Of a stretch of 64,000 nucleotides of DNA, positions 22,121-37,032 are shown piece after piece. The stretch covers positions 1-64,000 of the forward strand of contig NZ_JABFHG010000016.1 in NCBI RefSeq assembly GCF_013112485.1, given 5' to 3'. The notes beneath the pieces are model-generated. The model was given only the letters and a program-made list of their open reading frames with translations, did not search any database and was not told where the DNA came from. The stretch's first letter is position 1, and each line of letters opens with the position of its first letter. The stretch comes from Roseicella sp. DB1501 (GTDB taxonomy: Bacteria > Pseudomonadota > Alphaproteobacteria > Acetobacterales > Acetobacteraceae). The position numbers and the translations under genes are program-made.

Positions 22121-23914
22121 ATGCGCTACGTCTTCGGCCCCGTGCCCGGCGTATCCTGGCGCACCGTGGCTGGGGTATTCCTGCTGTTCTTCGCGCTCGC
22201 CGTCTGGAGCGTGATCTCGTCGTTCGTCTTTCTGCTGCTGGCCGGACTGCGTGACGCCTTCGATTGGGTGCATATCCAATGGTGGTGGTACCTGCGGGAC
22301 TACTGGCATTATCACGGCGTCCCGGAGCGCCTGGCCGCCTCGGGCGCGCTTGCCACGCTGCTGGTCGGCGGCGTTAGCTGGCGGGCCTACCGGATGACGT
22401 CCAGCGGCGGCAGGCCGCTGTTTGGTGCTTCCCGTTTCGCCACCCGCGCTGACGGCGAGCGGGTGGGCCTCAGTTACAGTGCCACTCCGCGGCCGGACAC
22501 CATTATCCTCGGCCGGACGGAGGGCTGGCAACCGCGCTATGTCGGTCTGCCCGGTACCGAGCATGTGCTGTTGGCGGCGAAAACCCGCTCGGGCAAGGGC
22601 GTCTCTTTCGTCCTGCCCAACTGCTTTGCCTGGGGCGAATCGCTCGTCGTGCTCGACGTGAAGCGCGAGAATTGGGACGCGACGGCAGGGCATCGCAAGC
22701 GGATGGGGCAGGAAGTGTTCCTCTTCCAGCCGCTGGCGGAGGACGGACGCACCCATTGCTGGAACCCCCTCGGCGACATCGATGTACGCCAACCAGACTA
22801 CGTCTCCAAGCTCCAGCGCCGGGCCTACGACTTCTTCCCGGAAGTCATGGGACGCGAGCGCTTTTGGCAGGATGGGGCCCGCTCGGCCTTCCTCAGCATC
22901 GCCGTGCTAATCACCGAAACCCCGGGGCTGGTGCTCAACCCGGCCACCGTGTTCCGCTGGTTCGCCAGAGGGGATGCTTCCGCCGAGCTCGCCCGGATGA
23001 TCGACGTACGGCGCAAGTCGGGTAATCCCTATTCTCAAGCCTGCGTCGACCTGATCTCCGATTATCTCAGCGGCACAGAAGAAGTGGTCAAAGGCGTTCG
23101 CAAGCACGTTACCGCCACCATGGGCCTGTGGTTCAATCCGAAAGTCGCCGCGGCTACGGAGCGCTCGGACTTCGACCTGAAGCAGCTGCGCCGCCGCCGC
23201 ATGAGCGTCTACGTCGCGGTGATGCCGGCGGATCTCGGTCAGCTCGGCGTGCTGCTCCGGCTGTTCTTCACCCAGCTCTTCGAAAGCAACACGGACGTGC
23301 TGCCGGACCAGGACCGCTCGATCCGCTACAAATGCCACGTCCTGCTAGATGAGTTCACCTCCATCCCGGCCATGCGCCCGCTGGCCAAGGCGGCGGGCTT
23401 CGCGGCGGGCTTCGGCTTGCGCTTCTCCTTCGTGGTGCAATCCAAGAACCAGGTCCGGGAGGAATACAAAGGGCAGGGCGAGGCCTCACTGCTTGAGAAT
23501 CTGGGCGCGGAAGTCTATTTCGGCACCAGCGACCCTGCGCTTTGCAAGGAGATTTCGGAGCGATCTGGGAACGACACGGTCGAGGTGATGAGCCGCTCCA
23601 CACCCCGCTGGATGGCTTGGCTTCGCCCCGATCGGCAGAGCGAAACGGCGCACTTGCAGAAGCGAGCGCTACTCCTGCCGCAGGAAGTCGCCCAGATGCC
23701 TGCCGAGCAGGAGCTGGTGTTCCGGGCGTCGGTCCCGGCCTTTCTTCTCAGAAAGCTGCGCTGGTTCGAAGATCCCAGTTTCCGGCGGCTGGAGCGCCGG
23801 GCGCCGGAGGTACCGAAGGTCAGCTACACGCTTGCCCGTGATGATGGCACGGTGACGATTCCGACCACATCGGGGCTGAAGGCGCGGATTAAGACGAAGA
23901 AAGCGACGGCGTGA
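22121..23914 (+). CDS. virD4: Type IV coupling protein VirD4/TraG
   Basis: A 597-residue coupling ATPase. Two N-terminal transmembrane segments (about residues 13-36 and 62-84) are followed by the RecA-like core: Walker A LLAAKTRSGKGVSFVLPN (about residues 150-167), LVVLDVKRENWDATAGHRK, and Walker B CHVLLDEFTSIPAM. ERFWQDGARSAFLSI and QSKNQVREEYKGQGEASLLENLG are typical of VirD4/TraG. It recruits the relaxosome to the secretion channel. It converges on the relaxase gene with only 6 bases between the stops. Confidence 0.94.
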   Translation: MRYVFGPVPGVSWRTVAGVFLLFFALAVWSVISSFVFLLLAGLRDAFDWVHIQWWWYLRDYWHYHGVPERLAASGALATLLVGGVSWRAYRMTSSGGRPLFGASRFATRADGERVGLSYSATPRPDTIILGRTEGWQPRYVGLPGTEHVLLAAKTRSGKGVSFVLPNCFAWGESLVVLDVKRENWDATAGHRKRMGQEVFLFQPLAEDGRTHCWNPLGDIDVRQPDYVSKLQRRAYDFFPEVMGRERFWQDGARSAFLSIAVLITETPGLVLNPATVFRWFARGDASAELARMIDVRRKSGNPYSQACVDLISDYLSGTEEVVKGVRKHVTATMGLWFNPKVAAATERSDFDLKQLRRRRMSVYVAVMPADLGQLGVLLRLFFTQLFESNTDVLPDQDRSIRYKCHVLLDEFTSIPAMRPLAKAAGFAAGFGLRFSFVVQSKNQVREEYKGQGEASLLENLGAEVYFGTSDPALCKEISERSGNDTVEVMSRSTPRWMAWLRPDRQSETAHLQKRALLLPQEVAQMPAEQELVFRASVPAFLLRKLRWFEDPSFRRLERRAPEVPKVSYTLARDDGTVTIPTTSGLKARIKTKKATA

Positions 23915-23920
23915 TTAGCG

Positions 23921-26900
23921 TTATCGCCCGATCCTCTGCCCCTGACCCCGCTCTCTCACCGGCCCGCGCAGCCGCTCGAGTTTCTGCTGAACGGCATACG
24001 TGACGGCGGACGGTAGCCTCTTCACCCTTTCAATGACCGCCTGCTGCCGCGACGCGGTACGCTCCAACGCCGCTACGATCGGGGCCAGTGCCTCAGCCTG
24101 ATTGCGCTGCGCAAAATTTTGGCTGAGCATCATGGCGGGCTCTCCCTTTGCCGCCCTGATCTCCGCAGGCCGCAAGCCTTGCTGCAGCGACCTCGCCGTT
24201 CCTTTGCGAACCGCTCCGGCTTTGGCGAGGAAGTCGATGGCCAAATCCTTCTTAGGCTGGCGGGAGAAGTTGCGCGCGACGTTCTCCCATGCGTTGTCCT
24301 TGGTGATCGGCCGCATGTCGTTCATCGGGCGGAGCTTGGCGATCTCGCTGCGCTCCGCGCCCTCGCTCACCACCAGAAATGACGTGCGCCGGTGCCGGGT
24401 ACCGGAGGAATAGGCGGAAAACCCGTTGATGGTCTTGGATCCTGACGGGATGGCATAGATATGTTCAGTCGCTGTCGAGCCTTGCGCGGTGTGCGTGGTC
24501 ATCACCTCGCCATACGCCAGCCGGACCCGTCCCGAGCCGTCATTCAGCGTCTTCCAGGTGATCCGACCTTCCCTGCCTTTGGCATTCCTGACCTGCATGC
24601 CCTTGGCATCGGCGGCCAGCACGGTGAGGACGGAGCCGTTGCGCCCGATGGATCCGCGCTCCCCCTCGGCCCGGGTTGAAGCGAACAGGCGCACCTTGTC
24701 GCCAGCCGCCAGCGCCATGTCATAGGTCTCCTTGCCATTCCCGATCGCCCTGATCTTCACCGCGTCGGGCCCGATTTGGCCAAGCCGCCGCCTCTCTTCG
24801 CGGATGGCGACGCCAAGCCGGTGTGCATCGGCGTTGGTCGGGGCTGAGACGGTCAGCGAGTACCGCTCGTCGTCGGCGTTGGCGCGCAGGCGCTCGCCGG
24901 CCAGTGCCGCCACCCGTGCCAATGCCTCGCGCTGCCCTCCCGGCACTAGCTCGGCGGTGCCGTCCGCACGCTTCAGGGCAAGGGCTTCTGCCGCTTTCCC
25001 TTCGCGGAACAGCCTGACGATCTCCTTCTCCTCCTTGCTCTTCTGACGCAGCGTGGTGAGGATTTCGGGTACCTGGTCGGGTCCCAGGGCGCGGCGGGCC
25101 AGATCGATAACCGGGCCCGCCTCGATCGACTGGCACTGCCTATCGTCACCAAGCATCACCAGCCGGAAGCCATGCTTTTGTTGCAGCTCAAGCAGCTCCA
25201 GCCCTTGCCGGGTACCGAGGAGAGAGAGCTCGTCCACCACCACGACGGATTGCCTGGAGAGAGCGACGTCCCCCTTCGCCACCGCCTCGACGAAGACACT
25301 GTACGCCTTCGTACGATCGCGGGAGATGCCTGCGTCAATCAAGTCGTCGGCCTGACGCCATGCCAGCGCGATGCCATGCACATCCTGCTGCCGGGCATTC
25401 CATGCCGATACCAGCGGCTTCAGCGAGGTGGTCTTGCCCATGCCGGCGGCGCCGATCAGCACGGCGATGCGTCCGCCTTCGCCGAGCCGGTGAATAGCGT
25501 CCCGCTGGGCCCTGCCGTGCGCTTTCTCGAAGGTGAGGCCCGACTGCTGGATGGCGTGTTCGATCTCGCTGGCGCTCAGCCTGCCGGTCCGGTCGGCAGC
25601 CGCGGCCGTTGCAAGCTCGATGAATGCCTTCTCCTGATGGACATGCAGGGCGGTGGTCAGCTTCGCCTGCCTTGGATTGTCATGCTCCTGCCAGTACAGC
25701 CGGGTCCTCTGCCCCTGCTGGCGGACGCCTTGTTCCATAAAGCGCTCGGTCACCCGGTCGATATCGACAGTGGTGTCGATGCCGTGGGCGATCAGGCCGC
25801 GCAGGGCGGCCGTGCGGGCGTCCGGCGCGGTGATGACGGCCCGCTTGTCCAGCTCGGCCTCCATCCAGGGCAGGGCCGTCTCGTAAGCCTTCTGCAGCCG
25901 CTCCTCAGGCGAGAGTGGCGGCGGGGAAGGGCCGTACGTCTCGATCCCCCGATATTGCCAGTTCAGCGCATCCGCCTGCCGGTGCCAGTCGGCGAAATCG
26001 GCCATATCATCCTTTTTCAGCCTCTCCCGGGTCTCCCCATCGATGCCGGGGATCTCGCCCTGTGTCCCTGCCTTCAGCAGCCCGGTGCGGCGCTCCGGCG
26101 TCAGCTCGTCCCAGACCAGCCCGAGCGAGGCGGCATAGGCCCGCGCCGCGTTTTCACCGCTCTGGCTGCGCTTGCTGAAATGATCGCGGACCTCGGTGGG
26201 GATCGCGTCCAACCGTGCCATGCCGGTGTCCGGGTCGAGCGAAACGCTGGCCTGCAGGCGGTCCCGCAGGTTGGTGGCGAGGTGCGCCTGGTAAAGCGCG
26301 CCGGTCTCCTTGATCAGGCCGTCCAGCTGGCCGAGATCGAGGGAGCCGACGCGGCCGGATTCGCAGAACACGGCATTCATGACGGTGAAGTGGGTGTGCA
26401 GGTCCGGGTCGCCCGCGATCGGCACCGCGACGCGCTCGGTCTGGCCGTTCTGCTCCATCCACAAAGTCGGGCGGGCGGTGTAGTGATCGAACTCGATCCA
26501 GCCGATATGGCCCGGCTCCGATCCGTCCTTGCCGCCATGACCCAGCTTCGCCTGCGCGATGTGCGCCTCCAGGTAGGCCATTGCTTCCGAGGCGGCATCC
26601 CGATGCGCCTGATAGATGGCGGCTTGCTCCGCCGGTACCGCGAAGGCCCACGCAACCGAAACGCTCTTGTCCGGCGTCAGGGTGAAGTCGACGGAGCCGA
26701 GCGGGATCTTCTCCTTCGTCTCGCCGGTCTTCGGGTCGGTGTACTCGCGCAGGGTCGAATAGTGCTTGCCCTCGATCACCTCGCCGTCTGTCCGGAGGCC
26801 GACCAGCAAGGCATTGATCTGCTGGCGGGTGAGCGGCTGCTCGGGGTCGATGCCAAGTCCCTTGGCCACCAGCGGGTGCATGTCGCGTCGCGGCTGGGCC

Positions 26901-27226
26901 GCCGCTTCACCCATATCGCCATCTTGGGTCCGGCTGGCTGCCTTGGCGAGCGCCTGGCCGAGCCGCTGCTCGGTTTCCATGCCATAGTCGCCGCCCCGGT
27001 CCCCGTCGCGCCGCATCAACTCGTTTAGCGCCTCGCTGTAGGTGAGATCGCCGGTTGCGACCTGCTCCGCCAGCTCCGCGATGTCGCGTTGCTCCGGGGT
27101 ATCCGTGCCCTTGGTGTAGTAACGGGCGAGGTTCGCCACCTCCTGCGGCACCGTCGGGGTGAGAAGGTGGTTGGTCAGGGCGGCGGCGTCGGAGGGTGAG
27201 CCCGCCGCGATGGTGGCATAGGTCAG
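23921..27226 (-). CDS. MobF-type conjugative relaxase-helicase
   Basis: A large bifunctional enzyme that nicks oriT, stays bound to the 5' end and unwinds the plasmid. From the first ATG/GTG (GTG 27151) it is 1076 residues, but the reading frame stays open upstream and encodes TYATIAAGSPSDAAALTNHL, which resembles the N terminus I recall of related relaxases. I therefore place the start at CTG 27226 (1101 residues), overlapping the upstream gene's TGA; ATC 27229 is another possibility. Visible features: tandem Tyr in LARYYTKG (nicking residues, about 36-37), the metal His motif DLHTHFTVMNAVF (about residue 275), helicase Walker A IGAAGMGKTTSLKPL (about residue 594), VVVVDELSLLG, and TTHTAQGSTA near the C terminus. 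It ends with coiled-coil-like basic sequence. Confidence 0.9.
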   Translation of the reverse strand: MTYATIAAGSPSDAAALTNHLLTPTVPQEVANLARYYTKGTDTPEQRDIAELAEQVATGDLTYSEALNELMRRDGDRGGDYGMETEQRLGQALAKAASRTQDGDMGEAAAQPRRDMHPLVAKGLGIDPEQPLTRQQINALLVGLRTDGEVIEGKHYSTLREYTDPKTGETKEKIPLGSVDFTLTPDKSVSVAWAFAVPAEQAAIYQAHRDAASEAMAYLEAHIAQAKLGHGGKDGSEPGHIGWIEFDHYTARPTLWMEQNGQTERVAVPIAGDPDLHTHFTVMNAVFCESGRVGSLDLGQLDGLIKETGALYQAHLATNLRDRLQASVSLDPDTGMARLDAIPTEVRDHFSKRSQSGENAARAYAASLGLVWDELTPERRTGLLKAGTQGEIPGIDGETRERLKKDDMADFADWHRQADALNWQYRGIETYGPSPPPLSPEERLQKAYETALPWMEAELDKRAVITAPDARTAALRGLIAHGIDTTVDIDRVTERFMEQGVRQQGQRTRLYWQEHDNPRQAKLTTALHVHQEKAFIELATAAAADRTGRLSASEIEHAIQQSGLTFEKAHGRAQRDAIHRLGEGGRIAVLIGAAGMGKTTSLKPLVSAWNARQQDVHGIALAWRQADDLIDAGISRDRTKAYSVFVEAVAKGDVALSRQSVVVVDELSLLGTRQGLELLELQQKHGFRLVMLGDDRQCQSIEAGPVIDLARRALGPDQVPEILTTLRQKSKEEKEIVRLFREGKAAEALALKRADGTAELVPGGQREALARVAALAGERLRANADDERYSLTVSAPTNADAHRLGVAIREERRRLGQIGPDAVKIRAIGNGKETYDMALAAGDKVRLFASTRAEGERGSIGRNGSVLTVLAADAKGMQVRNAKGREGRITWKTLNDGSGRVRLAYGEVMTTHTAQGSTATEHIYAIPSGSKTINGFSAYSSGTRHRRTSFLVVSEGAERSEIAKLRPMNDMRPITKDNAWENVARNFSRQPKKDLAIDFLAKAGAVRKGTARSLQQGLRPAEIRAAKGEPAMMLSQNFAQRNQAEALAPIVAALERTASRQQAVIERVKRLPSAVTYAVQQKLERLRGPVRERGQGQRIGR

Positions 27227-27507
27227 GATGGCGCCGCTTCCTCCACGAGCGCCTGGGCGATCTTCTCCGGCAGGTCGACGAGCCGGACCTCCAGCGTGCC
27301 GAGCGTCTCCTGCTGCTGCTCGAGGATGGCTGCGATCCGCTTGAGGGTCTGGCCAAGATCGGATTTTGGCGGGGGCTGGGACGCTGCCAGCAGGATCTGC
27401 TCGAGCATGGCGCTCTGCAGGGCGAGGGTCTCGTTCATCTGAGCCACGCCCCGGATCAGCGCTTCCTGGCGCTCCTCCACCCGGGTCAGGCGTTCGTCGT
27501 CAGGCAC
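27223..27507 (-). CDS. Small coiled-coil protein overlapping the relaxase
   Basis: From GTG 27507, with GGAGG eight bases upstream, a 94-residue product reads MPDDERLTRVEERQEALIRG and continues as heptad-like helices (QMNETLALQSAMLEQILLAA, then LKRIAAILEQQQETLGTLEVRLVDLPEKIAQALVEE). It has no recognised domain. Its stop overlaps the inferred relaxase start, so the two would be translationally coupled. Position next to the relaxase and candidate oriT suggests a relaxosome accessory protein. A longer version (from 27666) lacks a ribosome site and runs into the opposite gene. Confidence 0.65.
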   Translation of the reverse strand: MPDDERLTRVEERQEALIRGVAQMNETLALQSAMLEQILLAASQPPPKSDLGQTLKRIAAILEQQQETLGTLEVRLVDLPEKIAQALVEEAAPS

Positions 27508-27652
27508 CGTTCTGCCTCCGATCTGTGGTGAACCGCCGTTAGGCGGGTTCCTTGGTCTGTCAGACCTTCTGCCTCCACGCTTCGTGGCCCCCGCCTCAGC
27601 GATCTGCACTAGACGCCAATCTGCTAGTTGAACGCAAGCTATTTGCTGTGCC
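27508..27652. other. Candidate origin of transfer (oriT)
   Basis: The only non-coding gap between divergent mobilisation genes. It holds GAACCGCC-GTTA-GGCGGGTTC (27530-27550, one bulge), the palindrome GGTCTG-T-CAGACC (27554-27566), and CTAG-N11-CTAG near 27610-27628. Clusters of inverted repeats beside the relaxase gene are characteristic of oriT. The nick site is not identified. Divergent promoters for the relaxase and traL-like operons must also lie here. Confidence 0.5.
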
Positions 27653-28087
27653 ATGCTGCCGCCCATGGGTAGGCAGCGACGCGACGAAGAGCTGAGCCGG
27701 ATTGCCGAGGTCGTCCGTCAAGGCGGCGGGCGGTCTCCCCTCTATCGATGGCTGCACAATCGGCACGATGCGTTTGCCGAGCTGCTGGCCGAGGTACGCC
27801 CGGAATGGCGTGCCTTGGCGGCGGAGTTCGCGGCCATGGGACTAAGCGGCGGAGACGGCAGGGCGGTCAGTCCCGAGGCGGCCCGGCACACCTGGTGGCG
27901 GGTGCGGCGTGACGTAGCGAAGGCACAGGCGAAGCGCCGCCCCGCCGTGCCGCCGGTGGTGACGACTGTTCACCGCCCGCCGGGTCCCGCGTCCGGCCTG
28001 CTGCCTGCCGCATCGTCGCCGCCAGACACTGGCGACGCCATGGCCCGGCTCCGGGCGGAAATGGCGCAGCGTTCAGGGAGAGGGTGA
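27653..28087 (+). CDS. Probable DNA-binding conjugation protein (first gene of ParA/TraL-like operon)
   Basis: A 144-residue protein from ATG 27653 (140 from ATG 27665). The N-terminal two thirds are helical and rich in Arg and Trp (SPLYRWLHNRHDAFAELLAEVRPEWRALAAEF, then SPEAARHTWWRVRRDVAKAQ), which looks like a helical DNA-binding module. The C-terminal third is Pro-rich and disordered. It is divergent from the relaxase operon across the candidate oriT and is followed by a ParA/TraL-like ATPase. No exact family is recognised. Confidence 0.7.
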   Translation: MLPPMGRQRRDEELSRIAEVVRQGGGRSPLYRWLHNRHDAFAELLAEVRPEWRALAAEFAAMGLSGGDGRAVSPEAARHTWWRVRRDVAKAQAKRRPAVPPVVTTVHRPPGPASGLLPAASSPPDTGDAMARLRAEMAQRSGRG

Positions 28088-28090
28088 TTC

Positions 28091-28858
28091 ATGCCGCGCG
28101 ATAAGAATGAGGACGTGCCGCTGCTCGATGCACCGGCGGAGACGGCTCCGGTACTCATGGTCGGGCTGGGTCGAGGCGGCTCGGGCAAGTCCCTGCTGCT
28201 GGCCGAAGCGGTATGGCGGGCCCACAATCAGGGGCGCCCGGTCATCGTCGCCGATGGGGACGCCCGGTCAAAAACCTTGCTCGGCCTGTTCCCGGACGCG
28301 CTGACGCCCGTCAGTGAGGAGCTGCCGGACGTCAAGGCGTTCCTGTCCAGCCTGCTCAACCGCATGGCTAAGGAGCGGCGTTCCGCCGTGCTCGACCTCG
28401 GTGGCGGCGACCGCTCCCTGCTCGAATACGGGCGCGACCTGCGGCTGGTCGAGTTCTGTGCCCGCCGGGGGATCGAGCCGCTCGGCCTGTATGTGCTGGG
28501 GCCGGAGGATGAGGACCTGTCGCATGTGGTCTCGATCTTCGAGGCCGGGTATTTCCGGCCGCGCCGGACCCTGCTGGTGCTGAATGAAGGGGTCATTCGC
28601 ACCGGCCGCACCGTCGCGGGGGCTTTTGAGCGGACGATGTCCAGCCCCGGCTTCGCCCGGCTGATCGAGGCGGGCGCGGTACCACTGCTGCTCACGCGGT
28701 TGGCCTGCATGGACGATGCAAGGCGGATGCCCGGCGGCTTCTATGAGGCGGCGGGCGGGGACGCGCTCGACCCGGTGGAAGGCTTCATGCTTGAGGATTG
28801 GCTCGCCGATCTGGAGCGCAAGCGCCGGGAGGCCGGGGCGGCGGGTTGGCTGCCGTGA
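28091..28858 (+). CDS. TraL/ParA-like P-loop ATPase
   Basis: A 255-residue protein with a deviant-type Walker A (VGLGRGGSGKSLLLAEAV, about residues 24-41), VIVADGDARSKTLLGLFPDAL, and RRSAVLDLGGGDRSLLEYGRDL, the features of MinD/ParA relatives such as IncP TraL. In conjugative plasmids such ATPases are used in DNA processing or relaxosome positioning. A ribosome site (AGGGAGAGGG) lies just upstream. The next gene overlaps its stop as GTGA. ParA for partition is an alternative, but no partner ParB follows it; the ParB-like protein is elsewhere and of a different type. Confidence 0.8.
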   Translation: MPRDKNEDVPLLDAPAETAPVLMVGLGRGGSGKSLLLAEAVWRAHNQGRPVIVADGDARSKTLLGLFPDALTPVSEELPDVKAFLSSLLNRMAKERRSAVLDLGGGDRSLLEYGRDLRLVEFCARRGIEPLGLYVLGPEDEDLSHVVSIFEAGYFRPRRTLLVLNEGVIRTGRTVAGAFERTMSSPGFARLIEAGAVPLLLTRLACMDDARRMPGGFYEAAGGDALDPVEGFMLEDWLADLERKRREAGAAGWLP

Positions 28859-29328
28859 AGCCTGAAGGGTTCGCGGCCCGGCTGACGGCGGCGGGCATCC
28901 CGCCGGACAAGCCGCTGCATGGGGTGCTGCTAACCGTCCATGAGGCGGCAGAAACCGCGCTTGCCACTGTGACGGACAAAGCGCGGGGCCTCACGCCGCA
29001 GGGCGAGGCTGAGCTGATCGCCCGCGTTTCGCGCGAGGCGGCGGACGCGGCGGAAAGCCGGGTTGATCGCATGGTGCGGGGATTCAGCCTGCGCACGGCG
29101 CTGCTGGCCGCCTTTGGCGGGCTGGTGCTGCTGGGTGCTGGCTACGCGGTTGGGCGCTGGGACGGAGTGCGGGTCGGCGCACAAGGCATCGAAGGCAGCG
29201 TCTTCATGGCACAGATTGCCAGCCTCAACGATGCACGCGCGCTGGCCCAGCGCTGCCGTGAAACGCAAAGGCAGGCGCAGGGTGGCACTGCGTGTGACCT
29301 GCCTCCGGTCTGGGTCAATCGACGCTAG
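28855..29328 (+). CDS. Conjugation-associated membrane protein
   Basis: A 157-residue protein from a GTG overlapping the preceding stop. A soluble N-terminal helical region (about residues 1-75) is followed by one transmembrane helix (LRTALLAAFGGLVLLGAGYAVGRW, about residues 80-103) and a short periplasmic tail with two Cys residues and a conserved-looking end (CDLPPVWVNRR). This resembles the TraM/MobI-type membrane proteins coded beside TraL in alphaproteobacterial plasmids, though I cannot name the family. It is coupled to the ATPase gene. Confidence 0.7.
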   Translation: MKPEGFAARLTAAGIPPDKPLHGVLLTVHEAAETALATVTDKARGLTPQGEAELIARVSREAADAAESRVDRMVRGFSLRTALLAAFGGLVLLGAGYAVGRWDGVRVGAQGIEGSVFMAQIASLNDARALAQRCRETQRQAQGGTACDLPPVWVNRR

Positions 29329-29340
29329 GAGGGGAGCGAG

Positions 29341-29691
29341 ATGGACGCGCTGGACGAATGGACCATGGAGCACCTGCAAAACTATCTCGGGCTCATCGAG
29401 AAGGTGCAGCCCTTTGTCGAGCAGGGCCTGAATGCCGATCCACCCTTCCGCCAGTTGCAAATCCGGGTGGACTGGAAAAATGCCGGTAGCCCCTGCGCGT
29501 TAACGGTGATTCTCGCCAATGAGAAACTGGAAGGCCGCACGAAGCGAGCGTCCACGGGGTGCCATTGGACGGACGATGCCTACAAGCTGAAGACACGGCT
29601 CTATTTCTGGCTTGTCGAGCGCTACGGCTTGGAAGCGCGGTATCTGCCGATCTCGCATAGGCAGAAGCGGTCGGAGTACCAGGGCGCGTGA
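29341..29691 (+). CDS. Uncharacterised 116-residue protein
   Basis: It starts at ATG 29341 with AGGAGGGGAG immediately upstream. The product (MDALDEWTMEHLQNYLGLIE...) is mixed alpha/beta with a hydrophobic core, two Cys and a Trp-rich middle (RVDWKNAGSPCALTVILANE). It is the last gene of the plus-strand transfer operon and ends 8 bases before the convergent Cys-rich gene. Function unknown. Confidence 0.65.
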   Translation: MDALDEWTMEHLQNYLGLIEKVQPFVEQGLNADPPFRQLQIRVDWKNAGSPCALTVILANEKLEGRTKRASTGCHWTDDAYKLKTRLYFWLVERYGLEARYLPISHRQKRSEYQGA

Positions 29692-29699
29692 GGTGGGGA

Positions 29700-30272
29700 T
29701 CAGAATGGCAGGTCGTCATCGAGTACGGCAAGTGCATGTCGGGGCTGCGATGCGCGGCGCATCTCCAGCTCCGCCTCGATGCGCTCGATAATGTCAGGAA
29801 GTTCGGGGCTTTCCGGGACGCTGGAGAAGAGCGCTTGCAGGGCGGCCACCTCGTCGGGTTCGCCGTCCATCATCACGATGGCATGGTACGGGCACCAAAG
29901 ATGCTCGGCCAGCTCGTCGGTCGAGGCGGAGCGCAGCCCTCCGGCGTTCGCCACCGGTACGGCGTAGATTTCTTCGCCAGCACGGGCCACGTAGAAGGCA
30001 TGATCCAAGGTAAGATGAAACGTCGCGCCAAAGAGCGCGATGGCGTGTTCGGGTCCGTGCTGCTTGCCGCATCCGTAGCAAAGGCCCTCCGGTGTCTGCC
30101 GCGTGTACGCTCCCGTCTCCTCGCAAGCATCGACGACAAAGCTGGTTTGATCCTGATGCACGCCGTCACCTTCGTAACCGCACATCCCGCACTCACCGAG
30201 TTCGTAAAGCGGCTGGCAGCCATTCGGGCACCAGTCATTGCCTTTGGCGGGCTTGGCGTGTTCGTCGTTCAT
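29700..30272 (-). CDS. Cys-rich plasmid protein of the putative leading region
   Basis: A 190-residue protein starting at ATG 30272 with AGGAAAGG upstream. The N-terminal 30 residues contain WCPNGCQPLYELGECGMCGYEG and a second set GLCYGCGKQHG is near residue 75, together a likely zinc-ribbon or double zinc-knuckle. The rest includes FGATFHLTLDHAFYVARAG and an acidic C terminus ending DDDLPF, similar to the acidic C-terminal tip of SSB proteins. It lies downstream of the first multi-hairpin leader and reads toward the candidate oriT. I do not recognise a named family. Confidence 0.75.
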   Translation of the reverse strand: MNDEHAKPAKGNDWCPNGCQPLYELGECGMCGYEGDGVHQDQTSFVVDACEETGAYTRQTPEGLCYGCGKQHGPEHAIALFGATFHLTLDHAFYVARAGEEIYAVPVANAGGLRSASTDELAEHLWCPYHAIVMMDGEPDEVAALQALFSSVPESPELPDIIERIEAELEMRRASQPRHALAVLDDDLPF

Positions 30273-30295
30273 GGTGTCGTCCTTTCCTGTGAAAT

Positions 30296-30497
30296 GAGGT
30301 GAGCAACCGCTCACCTCTCTAGGCCGCCGCCAATGAGGCCGGGGGTGTCGCTGGCAAGTCCGAGCACGGGGTGGAGGCTCCGTCTGCAAGGAGCGCAGCG
30401 ACTGAAGATGGAGGTGCCCCGCGCGCAGCCTGCGAAGCAGGTTGACTTGCCTGCGGAGGGGGTCGGCGGCCCCCTAAAACAAAGCCGCGTCTGCGGC
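30296..30497. promoter_or_regulatory. Four-hairpin leader, copy A
   Basis: Four hairpins in order: GAGGTGAGC-AACC-GCTCACCTC (30296-30317), CCTGC-GAA-GCAGG (30429-30441), GGGGG-N7-CCCCC (30458-30474), GCCGC-GTCT-GCGGC (30484-30497). The same order recurs at 32.8 and 34.2 kb with changed but still paired arms. It lies directly upstream of the minus-strand gene at 29700-30272. Candidate single-stranded-DNA promoter or RNA leader. The rest of the stretch to 30600 shows no gene. Confidence 0.65.
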
Positions 30498-30600
30498 GAC
30501 ATAGCCTTATCTCGGCTTGGTTGCGGCGCATGGCAGGAGCACTACCAGCAGAGCGGAAAAAGGGGCGGCCTGCGCCGCCCCTTCGCTCCGTGCCGTCCAG

Positions 30601-32418
30601 TCAGGCCGCTTCGTCCAGCGCTTCCGCTTCGGCCGTCGCCTCAACGGGACAGCGCAGCACCGGGGGCAGCCAGCGGGTTCCGGCGATCCGCTGCTCGGCC
30701 AGCTCGGCCAGCACGGTTTTCGTCATCCGGTCGGCATCGGGCACCAGCGCCTGTGCCTCGCTCAGCGCCTCGACCACCTTGCCCTTCGACACCCGGCCAA
30801 AATACCCGGCGGCGGTGGCGCTCCAGTATTCCGCCATGTCGAGGCCGAGGGCGGCATGGAGCGCCTGCGCACCCGGCGCGGCGTCTCTGCCGCCCGACTG
30901 CACCGCGTTGAGAGATTCGGCGACAAGGTACGCCAGCAGGTCAAGTTTCACCGCCTGCTCTGCCTGACGCAGCCACGGCCAGAGCTGTTCGGCCTCCTCT
31001 GGCAGGGTCTGCGTCCACTGCTCGCGCAGCTCGGCCAAGACCTGCGCGGCAACCGTCTCGGCCAGCGCGGCGGACGCCATCAGCGGATACCGCGTGGTGG
31101 CCGCGATCTGGAGGCAGGACAGCGGCGGGCGGTCGTAGAGGCTGGACAGGGCAAGGCCATGCACCAGCGCATCCAGCGCGATGGAAGGGGTGCGGGCCAG
31201 CACGGCCTGCATCGCCTGCGTCCGGTGCGCGGTCAGCTCCTCCAGCAGCGACGCCGACAGCACAGGCTTCGGCTTGGCCTCCACGGCACGGGCCGGAAGG
31301 GCAGGGGCCATCGCCTCCGCATCTTCCCGGCGAAGACAACCGCGCTCGATGCCGAGGGTGCCGTCGGCGGTCAGATGGACGACCGCGCCCGCGCTGGCCT
31401 TCATCTCCTCGGGGAAGGAGTGACAGGCGGCTTCCAACGCGTCGAGCTGCTCCTGCAGGGCGAGATAGGTGTCCTCGTCGTCGTCGCTTCCCGACAGGGC
31501 GATCTCGTCCGCCTGTTGGATCAGCCGGTCTACCTGCGCCTGTTCGTCCTCGGTGTAGTCGCGGACGGTCGGCGGCACGGCCTGATACCGGCTGCGATCC
31601 AGCCGCTCGGCGGCCTCCACCCATGCCCAGCCCTCGGCGCGGACGGCGACGGCTTCCTCCTCCAGCGTCTTGGCGACGAGCCGGTCCAACAGCGCCGGAG
31701 GCTCGAAGAAACAAGCATCGGCGGCGGAGAACAGGTCGCGGGTGAGGGTGCCGCCTGCCGCCAAGAACCGCTCCTCGCCGATGAAGCGGGCCCGCCGGTC
31801 CGTGCCGGCCACTTTGTCTTCCGACAGGCGGTGGCGGATGGCACGGGCGCTGGTGTCGTAGGTGGCGCTCACGGCCTGCCAGACGGCCTCCTGCCGTGCG
31901 TGATCGTCGCTGAGGGTGAAGGCCATCAGCTGCTCCAATGTCATGGCATCGGTGCGGTACATTTCGAACAGTGCCGGACTGACGCGGGCCAGCTTGAGCC
32001 GCTGCTCGACGATGCGCGCGGCCACGCCGAAGCGGGCTGCAATGTCGGCGGTGGAAAGGCCGTTATCCGACAAGGCCTTGAAGGCGTCGAACTGGTCGGC
32101 GGGGTGCATGGGCTGGCGAATCTGGTTTTCCGCCAAACTGACTTCCGCCGCGTCCTCACCCTCCTCCAGCACGCGGCACGGCACGGGGAAGTTTTTGGCG
32201 ATCCGCTTTTCCTTCACCAGCCGTTTCAGCGCGGCGAGGCGGCGTCCTCCGGCGACGACATCGTACTTGCCGCCGGGGCGGGGGCGGACGTTCAGGCATT
32301 GCAGCAGACCATGCGCGGCGATGCTGGCGGCGAGATCGTCGAGGCTGCCGCCGCCGGTCTTGCGGACGTTGGCGTCGGACGGGAGGAGCTGGGCGAGTGA
32401 GATGGAAATGATGGACAT
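30601..32418 (-). CDS. Large ParB/RepB/Spo0J-family protein of the leading region
   Basis: A 605-residue protein from ATG 32418. The N-terminal ParB domain (about residues 1-190) shows ISLAQLLPSDANVRKTGGGS, the nucleotide-binding segment VVAGGRRLAALKRL, ENQIRQPMHPADQFDAFKAL and an HTH (LSTADIAARFGVAARIVEQRLKLARVSP). The remaining 400 residues are a helical domain found in plasmid-borne ParB-like proteins. Members of this type in plasmid leading regions are early-expressed accessory proteins, unlike classic partition ParB; there is no adjacent parA on this strand. It follows the 111-aa gene closely (50 bases) and probably shares its transcript from hairpin leader B. Confidence 0.87.
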   Translation of the reverse strand: MSIISISLAQLLPSDANVRKTGGGSLDDLAASIAAHGLLQCLNVRPRPGGKYDVVAGGRRLAALKRLVKEKRIAKNFPVPCRVLEEGEDAAEVSLAENQIRQPMHPADQFDAFKALSDNGLSTADIAARFGVAARIVEQRLKLARVSPALFEMYRTDAMTLEQLMAFTLSDDHARQEAVWQAVSATYDTSARAIRHRLSEDKVAGTDRRARFIGEERFLAAGGTLTRDLFSAADACFFEPPALLDRLVAKTLEEEAVAVRAEGWAWVEAAERLDRSRYQAVPPTVRDYTEDEQAQVDRLIQQADEIALSGSDDDEDTYLALQEQLDALEAACHSFPEEMKASAGAVVHLTADGTLGIERGCLRREDAEAMAPALPARAVEAKPKPVLSASLLEELTAHRTQAMQAVLARTPSIALDALVHGLALSSLYDRPPLSCLQIAATTRYPLMASAALAETVAAQVLAELREQWTQTLPEEAEQLWPWLRQAEQAVKLDLLAYLVAESLNAVQSGGRDAAPGAQALHAALGLDMAEYWSATAAGYFGRVSKGKVVEALSEAQALVPDADRMTKTVLAELAEQRIAGTRWLPPVLRCPVEATAEAEALDEAA

Positions 32419-32468
32419 AAAAGGACTTTCTCTAAAATGGGTTGAATGAAAGGGGGTCGGCACGGCGG

Positions 32469-32804
32469 TTAGTATTCGTCGGGCAGCAGGAAGGTGGTGA
32501 CGCTGCGGTCGGCCTCGGTGATGATCCACAGCGTGTTGTCGCCGAAGCCCTTGCACGGCTGGGCGGGATCGATCGGGTAGGCGGACAGGATGCGATCCCC
32601 GGCGGCCACCGCCTCGTCATTGGTGGCCTTGTCGTCGTCGCAGCAGCAGCCCCAGTCCCCGGCGAGGTGCCGGGCCAGGCAGTGCAGCTGATGGGCCTCG
32701 CTGACGGCAGCGAGGACGCCGGGCGTGGCGACGATCTGGCCCGTGGCGAAGCGCGGTTTGACCGGCAGCGGCTGGGCGTGGGGATGTAGAATGAGAGCGT
32801 TCAT
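32469..32804 (-). CDS. Conserved small plasmid protein
   Basis: A 111-residue protein from ATG 32804, preceded by AAGGAGA. It has a Cys/Asp cluster (DWGCCCDDDKATND), a conserved-looking middle (GDRILSAYPIDPAQPCKGFGDNTLWIITEADRS) and ends DEY. It is the first gene of the unit containing the large ParB-like protein, and I recall similar small proteins placed beside ArdC and ParB-like genes in alphaproteobacterial plasmids. Function unknown; anti-defence is possible. Confidence 0.72.
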   Translation of the reverse strand: MNALILHPHAQPLPVKPRFATGQIVATPGVLAAVSEAHQLHCLARHLAGDWGCCCDDDKATNDEAVAAGDRILSAYPIDPAQPCKGFGDNTLWIITEADRSVTTFLLPDEY

Positions 32805-32831
32805 GGAAATCTCCTTGGGTTGGGTTACGGT

Positions 32832-33020
32832 GTTGAGCGGCGCTCAACCCGTCTTGGCCCGCGCCTAGGAGCGGTGGGGTAGCGGTCCAGGCCGAAGCGC
32901 CGGGAGGGGGATCACCCGGAATGCGAAGCATTTTGGGGAGACCCGGCGCGGAGCCTGCGCAGCAGGTTGCCTTGACCGCGGGGGAGGCGGCGGCCTCCCG
33001 CACAGAGCCGCGTCGGCGGC
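32832..33020. promoter_or_regulatory. Four-hairpin leader, copy B
   Basis: GTTGAGC-GGC-GCTCAAC (32832-32848), CCTGC-GCA-GCAGG (32954-32966), GGGAGGC-GGCG-GCCTCCC (32982-32999), GCCGC-GTCG-GCGGC (33007-33020). It is directly upstream of the minus-strand unit 32804-30601. The third stem has a different sequence from copies A and C but pairs fully. No gene is supported from 32805 to 33285. Confidence 0.65.
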
Positions 33021-33285
33021 GACATGGCTCTATCTGTCCATGCATTCCTGCATCCGGTCCGCGCCGCGCGTCAGGGAGCGTCACCCGCCAGGGCCGATCC
33101 CGCAGGGTTCGGGGAGCACCGCGACTAGCGCCCGGCCCCACCGGGGCGACGCCCGGTCAGGCGAGCTTGCGGGCCGGTATTACTTTTCGTTTGGCTCAGG
33201 GCAGGGCGAGCGCCGACAGCGGAGGCGCGAGCCGCCCCAGAGGTCGCCCCGACGGCGCTGGGCCGCCGGAGCACCCGTGACCGCT

Positions 33286-34197
33286 TCAGGCGGCCTGTTC
33301 CTCGGCGGCGGGCTGCAGCGACCACAGGAAATCGCAGGCGCGCTGGGCATGGGCGGCGGCGACGAAGATGAACTTCTTGTCGCTGGCCAGCACCTTGAGC
33401 CAGGAGCCGATATAGGCCGTGCTGTCCTGCTTCAGGTCGTGATCGATGCCGAGCGACGCGCAGGTGAAGGCGGCGGTCAGCTCCGCCAGGATCTCCTCGA
33501 CCGCCCGCGCCTCCTCACTATGCCGCTTGACGATCGTCTCGCGGTTCAGGCGGCTGGGATGGCCGGTCCAGTGGCCAAGCTCATGCGCCAGGGTGGCATA
33601 GAAGGCTTCCGGGTAAACAAACGTCTCCATGTCCGGCATGCGGATATAGTCGAGGTTCGGCGTGTAGAAGGCGCGCTCGCCACCGAGCCGGATATCCGCT
33701 TTCGTGTGGGCGATGAACGCGTCGGCATGCGCGATGCGCTCGGCCGGTGCCGCCGTGGCCGGCTCCAGGGTTGGATAGTAATGGGCCGGCAGTCCGTCGA
33801 TCTGGCCGGCATTGAACACGGCGTAGCTTTTCAGGAACCAGATGCTGCGCTCGTCTTGGGTGCCGTCCGGCTTCTCCTCGGTGCGCCGGATCGTGTCGGA
33901 ATAGGTGACGGTGGTGGCCTTCTCGCCCTTGCGAACCTGGGCGCCCATCGAGGCGGCCTGCTTGTAGGTCATGAAGTAGGGCGAGCTGTAGCCCTTCGCC
34001 GTCATCGTCATCCACAGCACCAGGGTGTTGATGCCGCGGTAGGGCTGGCCGTTATGCCGCAGCGGAAACCCGGCGCCGGTCGTCTTCCAGGGCCGCTTCC
34101 ACGGCTTCAGCCCCTGCTCCAACTCGGCGACGATGGCATCGGTCACCGCTTGGTAGAGATCCACGCGCCCGGTGGACGTCTTGCTGTGGTTTGTCAT
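33286..34197 (-). CDS. ardC: Antirestriction protein ArdC
   Basis: A 303-residue protein with an N-terminal ssDNA-binding domain (DLYQAVTDAIVAELEQGLKPWKRPW, then PYRGINTLVLWM) and a C-terminal metalloprotease-like domain with the zinc motif LAHELGHWTGH (about residues 200-210) and a following Glu (EEILAELTAAF). ArdC protects incoming single-stranded plasmid DNA from type I and other restriction enzymes and is typically made early after transfer. It is transcribed toward the candidate oriT from leader C. Length and motifs are complete. Confidence 0.93.
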   Translation of the reverse strand: MTNHSKTSTGRVDLYQAVTDAIVAELEQGLKPWKRPWKTTGAGFPLRHNGQPYRGINTLVLWMTMTAKGYSSPYFMTYKQAASMGAQVRKGEKATTVTYSDTIRRTEEKPDGTQDERSIWFLKSYAVFNAGQIDGLPAHYYPTLEPATAAPAERIAHADAFIAHTKADIRLGGERAFYTPNLDYIRMPDMETFVYPEAFYATLAHELGHWTGHPSRLNRETIVKRHSEEARAVEEILAELTAAFTCASLGIDHDLKQDSTAYIGSWLKVLASDKKFIFVAAAHAQRACDFLWSLQPAAEEQAA

Positions 34198-34212
34198 GGT
34201 CTCGTCCTCCTT

Positions 34213-34417
34213 GAGAAAGCCAACAGCTTTCTCGGAGGAGGCGAGGCACGCGCCGGGGAGCGGGGGAGCGCGTCACGGTCAGCGCCGGGGGAGGGGGCTC
34301 ACCCAACCTGCACGGAACGCCAGTGGAGGAAGGTTGGGGACACCGCCGGCGCTGCCTGCGCAGCAGGTCGCCTTGACGCGCGATGGGCCGCAGGCCCTGC
34401 TAGGCCGCGTCTGCGGC
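34213..34417. promoter_or_regulatory. Four-hairpin leader, copy C
   Basis: GAGAAAGC-CAACA-GCTTTCTC (34213-34233), CCTGC-GCA-GCAGG (34355-34367), GGGCC-GCA-GGCCC (34385-34397), GCCGC-GTCT-GCGGC (34404-34417). It lies upstream of ardC. Order and spacing of the last three hairpins match copies A and B, while stems one and three differ with compensation. Confidence 0.65.
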
Positions 34418-34435
34418 CCCAAAATGGAACAGCGG

Positions 34436-35254
34436 TCAGTGCCGCCATACCTTGATCGCTGAAACCACTAGAATGGCGGCGAGCAGCGGCAGCAGCACGG
34501 GCGTCGGCGCCATCCCAAGCAGTTGACCGCCGATGAAGCTGCCGAGCACCGAGCCGGCAGCCATCACCAGCACGAAGCGGCGATTCTGGCCGAGCACGGC
34601 AAAGCTGCGGTCCCGGCTGTAGCGGGTAAAGCCGACGATCATGGTGGGCAGGCTCACCGCCAGGGACAGGCTGCCAGCCAGCTTGATATCGGCGCCAAAC
34701 AGCAGCACGAGCGTTGGAATCAGCAGTTCGCCGCCGGCCACCCCAAGCAGCGATGCGACGATGCCGATGCCGAATCCCGCCATGACGCCGGCCACGGCCT
34801 GGACCGGACCGGTCAGCATGGCGCCCGATCCGCTCGCGCCGTGGCCGAGCAGGAGAACGATGGCAATCAGCCCGAGCATGATGGCGATGACGCGGTAGAG
34901 CGTATGCGATGTCAGCCGGGTGGCCCAGCCGGCGCCGAACCAGGCGCCAAGCAGGCTGCCGGCCAGCAGGTTGACGATAATCGGCCAGTGCGCGGCGACC
35001 TCGCTGAACGGCACAGTGTTGGCGCGAAAGGGCAGCGCCGAGGCGACCACGACCAGGCTCATCGCCTTGTTGAGGATGACCGCTTCGAGCGCCGCGAACT
35101 GAAACAAGCCGATCAGCAGCGGCAGGCGAAACTCGGCACCGCCCAGCCCGATTAGCCCGCCCAGGACGCCAATGACGGCCCCGCCGGCAAAGGCCGCAGG
35201 CATGCGACGCGCCCGAGTGGACGGAACGGATGGGGCGAGCATGGTGGCATCCAT
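34436..35254 (-). CDS. TauE/SafE-family membrane exporter
   Basis: A 272-residue protein with about eight hydrophobic helices and the duplicated TauE/SafE pattern: GGAVIGVLGGLIGLGGAEFRLPLL in the first half and GIGIVASLLGVAGGELLIPTLVLLFG in the second. The family exports sulfite, sulfoacetate and other anions. ATG 35254 lies inside the operator palindrome; the in-frame ATG at 35242 leaves the operator upstream and may be the true start. The divergent or upstream ModE-like regulator suggests control by an oxyanion such as molybdate, tungstate or sulfate. The substrate is not determined by sequence. Confidence 0.87.
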   Translation of the reverse strand: MDATMLAPSVPSTRARRMPAAFAGGAVIGVLGGLIGLGGAEFRLPLLIGLFQFAALEAVILNKAMSLVVVASALPFRANTVPFSEVAAHWPIIVNLLAGSLLGAWFGAGWATRLTSHTLYRVIAIMLGLIAIVLLLGHGASGSGAMLTGPVQAVAGVMAGFGIGIVASLLGVAGGELLIPTLVLLFGADIKLAGSLSLAVSLPTMIVGFTRYSRDRSFAVLGQNRRFVLVMAAGSVLGSFIGGQLLGMAPTPVLLPLLAAILVVSAIKVWRH

Positions 35255-35285
35255 CGATATAGCGTGATGACTATATCGATGGATG
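35248..35285. promoter_or_regulatory. Perfect 15-bp inverted repeat, candidate ModE-type operator
   Basis: Arms CATCCATCGATATAG and CTATATCGATGGATG with an 8-base spacer. The TATA-containing ATCGATATAG-N8-CTATATCGAT resembles the ModE consensus. It lies between the ModE-like gene and the TauE/SafE gene, both on the minus strand. Confidence 0.7.
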
Positions 35286-35291
35286 CCGGAA

Positions 35292-35654
35292 CTACACCAG
35301 AGGCGGTTGCGGCTGCGCCAGTGCGGCCAGTTCCTGCAGCTCGCTTTCGACGGCCCTGGCTGCCTTATCTTGAAGGCGGTGGTATAGCCCGAGCACGGTG
35401 CGGCCAGTTTCGGTCAGCTGTGCGCCGCCGCCCGTCCGCCCGCCTTTGGTCGATACCACCAGCGGCGCGCGGAAATACCCGTTCAGGGTGTCAATGAGAT
35501 ACCAGGCGCGCTTGTAGCTCATCCCCATGCGGCGGCCGGCTGCCGCGATGGAGCCGGTTTCCGCAATCCCCGCCAGCAGTTCGGCTTTGCCGGTACCGAG
35601 CAAGGTATCCGGGCCGAGCACGACACGCAGGGTGACAAATGGAATATCAGGCAC
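35292..35654 (-). CDS. Stand-alone ModE-like winged-helix regulator
   Basis: A 120-residue protein equal to the N-terminal DNA-binding domain of ModE: LLGTGKAELLAGIAETGSIAAAGRRMGMSYKRAWYLIDTLN (helix-turn-helix), followed by the wing with VVSTKGGRTGGGAQLTETGRTVLGLYHRL. The C-terminal molybdate-binding (TOBE) domain is absent, so it either does not sense molybdate itself or senses through another means. It precedes the TauE/SafE gene on the same strand with a perfect palindrome between them. Confidence 0.88.
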   Translation of the reverse strand: MPDIPFVTLRVVLGPDTLLGTGKAELLAGIAETGSIAAAGRRMGMSYKRAWYLIDTLNGYFRAPLVVSTKGGRTGGGAQLTETGRTVLGLYHRLQDKAARAVESELQELAALAQPQPPLV

Positions 35655-36046
35655 GGGTCAGCCTTCCTGGCCACCTTGGCCGGTGGCTTCCGTTGCAGCA
35701 CTTGCCTGGCGTCGGGCACCGCTACTTCATGATGGACGGTTTCGTTGTTTGATGAAGAGATAAGCGCTTGCGGACGCGCGCTGAAGCTGACTAGTGCGAC
35801 GAAACCGTCGGCAGTCGAGACCGCTCAAGGTCGAAAACGCTTTTGATAGTAGCGCTTAGCGCCTTTTAGTTTATAGTAGTATAGAACAGCCAACCCATGA
35901 TTGATCCTGTGTCCCTCTTCTTTCCCCATGTCCGTACGTGGTTCGCTGCCGATATGGCGACGAAGCGGATGGTGGCATCTGGGGTAAGGACTGGCGCGCA
36001 ACGGCGAATGCTTTCAGTCAGGACCGTGCAGGCCTATGATCGGGCC
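35655..36046. promoter_or_regulatory. Control region upstream of the copper operon
   Basis: No gene is supported. An 11-bp inverted pair GACGGTTTCGT (35736-35746) and ACGAAACCGTC (35800-35810) brackets 53 bases. An AT-rich part at 35850-35885 (TTTATAGTAGTATAG) is the likely promoter of the plus-strand efflux operon. The open frame that starts at 35897 runs into the signal-peptide protein below but its first 50 codons look non-coding. Confidence 0.45.
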
Positions 36047-36418
36047 ATGCTTCGTCGCTTCTCCCGGCAGTTCGTCTTCCTGGCCACGCTCGTCGCGTTC
36101 CTCTGCGCCGGCGTCACCCAGGCGATGCCGTCGGCCACGATGCTGGCGCCGCCGGAGGCGGCGATGACCATGCCGATGGTCATGGAGACGACGGATGACG
36201 GCACGGCCATGCCCTGCAAGGACTTGGCGCCCTGCCAGGACCGGATGCCGGGCTGCATGCTGGATCTTGGCTGCGTCTTCATGATCGGTCTGCCGATGCC
36301 TGATCCGTCGGCGGTCACGCGGCTTGACTGGTCGGCGATCTATTACTGGATGTCGGACGTCGACCCGGCCGGGCTAACCCGGAAACCCGCCCTCGATCCC
36401 CCTATCTCACGCGTCTGA
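36047..36418 (+). CDS. Small secreted Met/Cys-rich protein, CopL-like
   Basis: From ATG 36047 a 123-residue product has a signal peptide (MLRRFSRQFVFLATLVAFLCAG) and a Met/Cys-rich middle (MTMPMVMETTDDGTAMPCKD, then CQDRMPGCMLDLGC). Met and Cys clusters suit copper or silver binding in the periplasm. It lies upstream of the CusCBA-type operon and may act as a metal chaperone or a CopL-like regulator. The upstream in-frame ATG 36008 is an alternative start. No strong ribosome site distinguishes them. Confidence 0.65.
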   Translation: MLRRFSRQFVFLATLVAFLCAGVTQAMPSATMLAPPEAAMTMPMVMETTDDGTAMPCKDLAPCQDRMPGCMLDLGCVFMIGLPMPDPSAVTRLDWSAIYYWMSDVDPAGLTRKPALDPPISRV

Positions 36419-36620
36419 ACGGCCGGGCAGTGCGCAAGCACCGCCCCGGTTCGCCTCTGCTCGCTCGCCGATGTCTGGTCATCTGACGCCCTTGGCGTCG
36501 CGTGATCGCCGGACCTAGCGCGATCGGAGTTCCTCGCGGAGCCGGCTTCATCGCCGTTTCGTATCAGACGAACCTGTCGCTTGCGTCGTGACGCAGGCGC
36601 TCCACCAGTGAGATAGTAGT

Positions 36621-37031
36621 ATGATTTTCCATCGTTTTCGCGCGGCCGTGCTGGGCACGGTCGCAGTGCTTGCGGCCGCCTTCCTGAGCACGGCGGCCAT
36701 GGCGGCCGCTCGTGATTACCGGATCGAACTCGTCAGCGCCCAGGCGGCCGGCGCAGGCAAGACGGACGTCACCGTCCGCCTGATCCATCTGCCGGACAGC
36801 AAGCCGGTGCCCGATGCCGTCATTTTCCAGACCCGGGCCGACATGGCGCCGTCCGGCATGCCAACCATGACCGGTAAGGTCTCGCCGGCGGCCGCCCAGC
36901 CGCAGCCGGGCACTTACCGGCTGCAGGTCGAGACCGGCATGGCCGGGGGCTGGGCGCTGAGCTTATCGGCCAAGATTCAGGGCGAGACCGAGACGGTACG
37001 CAGCACGATCGCCTTCAACGCGGCGCAATGA
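36621..37031 (+). CDS. Periplasmic FixH/YtkA-like protein
   Basis: A 136-residue protein with a signal peptide ending at about residue 28 (STAAMAAA) and a single immunoglobulin-like beta domain with RIELVSAQAA...TDVTVRLIHLPDSKPVPDAVIF and GTYRLQVETGMAGGWALSLSAKI. Such FixH/YtkA-like domains are common in metal-efflux operons, where they may bind metal or aid folding of the periplasmic complex. It is followed directly by the outer-membrane factor. Confidence 0.75.
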   Translation: MIFHRFRAAVLGTVAVLAAAFLSTAAMAAARDYRIELVSAQAAGAGKTDVTVRLIHLPDSKPVPDAVIFQTRADMAPSGMPTMTGKVSPAAAQPQPGTYRLQVETGMAGGWALSLSAKIQGETETVRSTIAFNAAQ

Positions 37032-37032
37032 G

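Follow-up and report, generated by a model that had tools for sequence, protein, structure and literature searches.

A family of leaders of plasmid establishment genes that probably fold as single-stranded DNA, with three members in Roseicella sp. DB1501

The first 64,000 nucleotides (nt) of contig NZ_JABFHG010000016.1 of the alphaproteobacterium Roseicella sp. DB1501, hereafter called the window, contain three related leaders with four hairpins each. These leaders are members of a large and real family of leaders of plasmid establishment genes that fold as single-stranded DNA (ssDNA) and that are, as far as has been searched, undescribed. The hosts of the family are conjugative and mobilizable replicons of Proteobacteria, mainly of Alphaproteobacteria. 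Judged by their sequences and places, the elements belong to the leading region and probably act as promoters that are used while the DNA is still single-stranded. The family itself, its covariation, the identity of the folding strand, the constant position ahead of genes, the types of these genes and the orientation relative to relaxase genes were all computed here.

A previous sequence-only reading of the window had described the hairpin series, and both sequence and folds confirmed it: the hairpins occur in the same order in all three copies, and each copy is located directly upstream of one minus-strand unit. The claim that hairpins 2 (CCTGC-N3-GCAGG) and 4 (GCCGC-N4-GCGGC) are conserved in sequence holds among the three window copies but fails in the family, where they were found in 1/110 and 3/110 copies, respectively (the 110 include window copy 3). 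Moreover, an expression built on the window hairpins and applied to the loci L001-L017 and the window matched the window's own copies only. Thus, the window hairpins are not the signature of the family. The part that is conserved family-wide lies between hairpins 1 and 2 and reads, on the strand opposite the genes, GGAGGGGGATCRCCC-NN-CCTGCAC-(9 to 46 nt)-GGAAGG-NN-GGGGANACC, in which the spacer takes in no more than a single base from the motif next to it. This core is enclosed by a variable stem that covaries. The core pattern matched at least 120 stretches of genome contigs; among the 80 matches listed, 61 were alphaproteobacterial as judged by their titles, and some of the others were plainly due to chance. 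When a strict expression was applied to the core as a whole, 110 distinct copies could be parsed; copies 1 and 2 of the window diverge too far to match this expression. With a looser expression, the same loci gave 153 matches, of which 101 had the CCTTCC part nearby (110 by the strict one). Pattern and expression left the NN positions unconstrained, as they did the closing stem, the apical part and the spacing from the genes.

The fold was evaluated for single copies and for an alignment of the family. As ssDNA, the plus strand of the three window copies folds better than dinucleotide-shuffled sequences (z of -4.91, -3.14 and -4.61; 0/200 shuffles as good for each). The minus strand also beats its shuffles (z of -3.24, -2.90 and -4.75; 0, 2 and 0 of 200 as good), which makes the folding of single copies uninformative about the strand. 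For the analysis of covariation, 32 of 37 cluster representatives were aligned, the five with a long apical part being left out, and scored over a closing stem of 14 pairs and an inner helix of 8 pairs. The covariation score was 0.461 as compared to 0.148 (standard deviation 0.015) in shuffles, and 139 cells were changed on both sides as compared to 52.6. Structures slid along the alignment reached just 0.058-0.133. The wider alignment does therefore covary, which the sequence-only reading had named as a check of its proposal. In the same alignment, the variable stem carries no fixed sequence. With RNA parameters, the consensus fold amounts to -34.7 kcal/mol for the template strand and to -20.7 kcal/mol for the gene sense. 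Furthermore, a long-range stem enclosing the core is supported, as at least 7 pairs were found in 27/48 copies, whereas 100 partner shuffles gave a mean of 13.4 and a maximum of 21.

The strand that folds was deduced from the types of wobble pairs and loops. On the strand opposite the genes, which is their template, the 110 copies have 115 G.T but only 12 A.C departures from pairing when the closing stem is included. In the non-redundant set of 48 copies, the numbers are 47 and 4 (p 2.4e-10). For the free inner positions alone, 76 wobbles are A.C in the gene sense, and thus G.T on the opposite strand, and 3 are the reverse. An mRNA fold would give the reverse bias and duplex DNA none, and it is therefore the template strand that folds, not the mRNA. 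The loops point to the same strand. GNA triloops are unusually stable in DNA, and on the template strand the non-redundant copies contain 28 GNA, 1 TNC and 105 other triloops (65, 5 and 271 in all copies), while random windows contain 128, 92 and 1382. The folding of the template (plus) strand, as the sequence-only reading had it, is thus borne out by both tests. Folding as ssDNA on this strand is well supported, and we regard it as highly probable.

The noncoding element occupies a fixed place upstream of establishment genes of the leading region. Downstream of 107/110 copies there is an open reading frame that has a ribosome-binding-like site, and the start codon lies 80-120 nt away in 93/110 copies, as compared to 7/110 on the side facing away and 99/2200 for random positions. 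Scanning of the 107 downstream proteins revealed ArdcN (22), HTH_ParB (21), MPTase-PolyVal (19), DUF932 (14), Tc-38 (9), DUF3768 (7), ArdA (5) and ParB_N (5). DUF2958, N6_N4_Mtase, DUF3846 and UPF0020 were found twice each and six further families once each. In these counts one protein may match several families, and some proteins are cut by contig ends. The genes are hence of leading-region types, as had been proposed. On a plasmid of the betaproteobacterium Nitrosospira, the first annotated gene after the copy (L162, 4838-4917) encodes an IS3 transposase, perhaps owing to an insertion between element and gene.

The orientation of the relaxase gene allows the transferred strand to be deduced. 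According to Samuel et al., this gene is typically located in the lagging region (PMC11541004). Provided that its reading direction is away from the origin of transfer (oriT), its template strand would be transferred, and the folded strand is expected opposite to the relaxase gene strand. In the window, the MobF relaxase gene is on the minus strand and all three elements are on the plus strand (3/3). On 25 other replicons, 48 of 54 copies counted by hand agree as well. Thus, for most copies the folding strand coincides with the strand deduced from the relaxase gene to be transferred, as the sequence-only reading had held for the plus strand of the window. The 54 copies exclude the window and three records in which no relaxase was detected (W06, W19 and W22; 3 copies), and all replicons were chosen because a copy had already been found on them. 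The W04 and W08 relaxases score under the cut-off of their family, that of W11 was taken from the annotation, and for W17, which has two relaxases on opposite strands, the nearer one was used. Without W04, W08 and W17, 39/44 copies agree. By replicon, the majority agrees in 24/25 cases according to a recount and in 23/24 of the tested set. Among the intact copies that break the orientation are L012 (about 9133-9214) and L016 (about 9135-9213), which are situated beside mobC on Caulobacter plasmids and of which the latter precedes a gene for a MerR-type regulator, and L166 (28349-28430) on the Sphingobium plasmid pDE2, which is located before a short gene behind the relaxase.

The covariance model R1 was built without window copies 1 and 2, copy 3 being in its training set. 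Applied to the window, R1 recovered all three copies on the plus strand, the next-best match having an E value of 1.5. Copy 1 is a weak member because the search of the whole genome at E up to 1 lists only copies 2 and 3. The apical part of copy 2 is a short hairpin only. R1 matches were present in 14/385 alphaproteobacterial genomes and in 12/398 genomes of the phylum (11/12 in the own class), each count including the own genome and the two draws sharing some genomes. A blastn search with copy 3 identified nine plasmid records, from Caulobacter (2), Shinella (2), Thiothrix (2), Novosphingobium, Ensifer and Marinibacterium, and the same search of plasmids with copy 2 gave none. The 26 plasmid records and one genome that were selected for having a copy contain 1 to 4 copies each. 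Outside the Alphaproteobacteria, copies were found in Thiothrix and Nitrosospira, and the copy L036 had no match in a phage collection. The family is thus patchily spread, as are mobile elements.

How could such an element work? The transferred strand, presumably the plus strand here, would enter the recipient, where each element would adopt a fold made up of a long-range stem, a variable stem (about 12 pairs), an internal loop that is G-rich and conserved (AGGGGGA), a helix of 8 pairs between CCCNNCCT and AGGNNGGG, and a small apical hairpin. This fold would mark the start site from which the gene, at a distance of about 100 nt, is expressed early. The transferred strand would serve as the template and be read toward oriT before the complementary strand is made. 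A host factor, either RNA polymerase or a primase, may read the element, with transcription starting at or near it. Expression from the single strand is rather likely. Of the proposed new family of ssDNA promoters, the family and the ssDNA fold have stood up, while the term promoter stays an inference, because a simple scan finds no -35 and -10 boxes and the variable stem has no fixed sequence to hold them. The lack of visible sigma-70 boxes suggests that recognition occurs through the conserved loop. More tentatively, and as a possibility that we would not call probable, a family unrelated to Frpo may initiate the expression of genes in cells that receive alphaproteobacterial plasmids, or some of the beta- and gammaproteobacterial ones, without -35/-10 boxes, a host factor reading the AGGGGGA loop and the apical part with CCTGCAC/GGAAGG.

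The best comparison is provided by the F plasmid, in which Frpo1 and Frpo2 precede leading genes and are reported to fold as a single strand and to be required for early expression (PMC9849209). The same source reports that Frpo rebuilds -10 and -35 boxes (PMC9849209). The leading region of F encodes DUF932, ParB-like, antirestriction, SSB and methylase proteins. Two repeated regions in it, one ahead of ssb and the other ahead of the orf that is followed by the DUF932 gene, are 88-90% identical and were taken by position as Frpo2 and Frpo1, respectively; ParB-like and DUF932 genes lie behind them. For the latter region, the template strand folds somewhat better than the other (-70.6 vs -65.1 kcal/mol, no shuffle control). 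The ParB-like protein of the window is a full-length homologue of the F protein (31% identity over 637 columns, E 1e-65). Like Frpo1 and Frpo2, the element is thus found in the leading region, in more than one copy and upstream of establishment genes, with ParB-like and DUF932 genes behind it in both systems. In contrast to Frpo, no -35/-10 boxes were found for it by the consensus scan of 30200-34700, and R1 gave no match in the leading region of F at E up to 10. As regards place, strand and gene set the element is similar to Frpo, yet it does not belong to the Frpo sequence family.

Other known systems were also considered. The Frpo-like candidates in anti-defence islands represent the same idea and the same gene types, and they were sought via similarity to known Frpo/ssi and via -35/-10 boxes (Samuel et al. 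2024, PMC11541004). The word Alphaproteobacteria is absent from the main text of that paper. The STAXI motif (RF01728) is likewise structured and found near ssb, antirestriction and other genes for DNA handling, and ssDNA was discussed as a possibility for it (PMC2864571). In contrast to the element, STAXI is described there as repeated pseudoknots, and it was judged likelier to be RNA than ssDNA owing to its UUCG loops (PMC2864571). On the complementary strand, the STAXI TTCG becomes CGAA and thereby contains GAA, a triloop of GNA type; the comparison of G.T with A.C is thus relevant to the STAXI and radC motifs. In the whole window no Rfam family reaches its gathering score, and a search of 27000-37000 at E up to 10 gave 12 matches, all under their own thresholds, including one to a model of a CRISPR repeat within copy 3 (E 3.2); STAXI and radC (RF01754) were absent from both searches. 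No published description of such an element was found in a literature search that reached few subscription papers and hardly any preprints.

Several observations weigh against the elements being single-strand promoters, or reduce the force of the evidence. A simple consensus scan of 30200-34700 found 0 sigma-70 promoter-like sites with 0.3 expected, which is a weak test because alphaproteobacterial promoters can be degenerate. There is also no clear -35 motif before the G-rich upstream hairpin that 74/110 copies possess. The core columns that were set by the pattern or the expression are conserved by construction. Two of five covariation measures are unremarkable: 13 pairs changed on both sides as compared to 12.4 in shuffles (254/500 as high), and 44 further pair types as compared to 39.0 (26/500 as high); moreover, 6/8 pairs of the inner helix are invariant. 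Tetraloops show no clear excess of GNNA over TNNC (5 vs 2 in the non-redundant set, 13 vs 8 in all copies), and hairpins with one wobble in the flanks lean just weakly to G.T (70 vs 48 and 139 vs 106, respectively), random windows giving 720 G.T and 723 A.C. Six of the 54 copies face the other way, one each in the replicons W03, W07, W08 and W13 and two in one further contig; those of W03 and W07, two Caulobacter plasmids, adjoin mobC. The agreement with the relaxase genes could also result from the gene order of leading regions alone. Finally, oriT and nic of the window are putative, and the plus strand is taken as transferred from the orientation of the relaxase.

The strongest competitor, which we nevertheless consider unlikely, is a single-strand initiation site of the ssi/sso kind, at which primase or RNA polymerase would prime the complementary strand on the folded transferred strand, the proximity of genes being secondary. 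Covariation and the strand evidence from G.T pairs and GNA loops fit such a site equally well. E. coli DnaG starts from the trinucleotide CTG, and this is contained in the core motif CCTGCAC, which is present in 109/110 copies largely by construction of the expression. Frpo itself is said to make primer RNA, according to a review (PMC7690428). Yet a priming site could do without a gene start at constant spacing, such as most copies have, and on some replicons several copies precede different genes.

A structured 5' untranslated RNA of the downstream genes, such as a riboswitch-like or protein-binding leader, would account for the covariation and for the fixed place before start codons, and the gene-sense strand of single copies beats its shuffles, too. 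It is nonetheless quite improbable, since the departures in the gene sense are A.C rather than the G.U expected of an mRNA leader, the consensus fold is weaker in that sense and none of the Rfam matches reaches its threshold. Still less probable is a divergent or antisense RNA transcribed from the strand that lies opposite to the genes, for which the wobble test is blind to the distinction between RNA and DNA because G.U pairs are equally permitted. A loop bias in triloops rather than tetraloops, as observed, is expected for DNA, and such an RNA does not by itself predict the relaxase orientation, though the gene order of the leading region could give it. The least probable alternative is a folded recombination site moving gene cassettes like the attC sites of integrons, which would suit near-identical copies before different genes of one locus (for instance, L013 and L126), but attC sites lie behind the cassette gene and the element is found upstream of genes at a fixed distance.

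If the elements do promote expression from the single strand, an incoming plasmid could switch on protective genes before becoming double-stranded. Studies of single-stranded promoters have dealt with enterobacterial plasmids, for instance F; expression prior to duplex formation would be extended to a large group of environmental plasmids by means of an unrelated element. The element would also serve as a signature by which leading regions and anti-defence genes could be located in such plasmids. Moreover, the strand test based on G.T vs A.C pairs and GNA loops could be used on other orphan motifs to distinguish structured ssDNA from structured RNA.

Table 1. Leaders, cores and associated genes in the window
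Feature	Position	Strand	Basis
Copy 1, leader of the Cys-rich protein gene	30296..30497	+ (folded strand given)	sequence, fold
Copy 1, divergent core	30356..30432	+	R1, 29.4 bits, E 5.4e-5; outside training set
Copy 2, leader of the small protein/ParB-like unit	32832..33020	+	sequence, fold
Copy 2, core and variable stem	32889..32957	+	R1, 47.3 bits, E 2.1e-9; outside training set
Copy 3, leader of ardC	34213..34417	+ (folded strand given)	sequence, fold
Copy 3, core and variable stem	34276..34358	+	R1, 80 bits, E 1.7e-17; training member of R1
ardC-like gene (ArdcN and zincin-like metallopeptidase)	33286..34197	-	family search
Small protein	32469..32804	-	family search: no family found
ParB-like protein, homologous to the one that plasmid F encodes between ssb and psiB	30601..32418	-	family search, alignment
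Cys-rich protein	29700..30272	-	family search: no family found
Candidate oriT region with inverted repeats, before divergent plus-strand genes	27520..27652	not applicable	inferred from sequence
MobF/TrwC-type relaxase with helicase part; sets the presumed transferred strand (+)	23921..27151	-	family search
Type IV coupling protein	22121..23914	+	family search

Beyond the leaders, at 34436-43108, the translations, judged by eye, resemble a sulfite-exporter-type membrane protein, a ModE-like regulator and a heavy-metal resistance-nodulation-division (RND) efflux operon. Between the candidate oriT and the leaders, at 27653-29328, there are small plus-strand genes, none of which reached the family cut-off; in R388, the matching place is occupied by stbABC.

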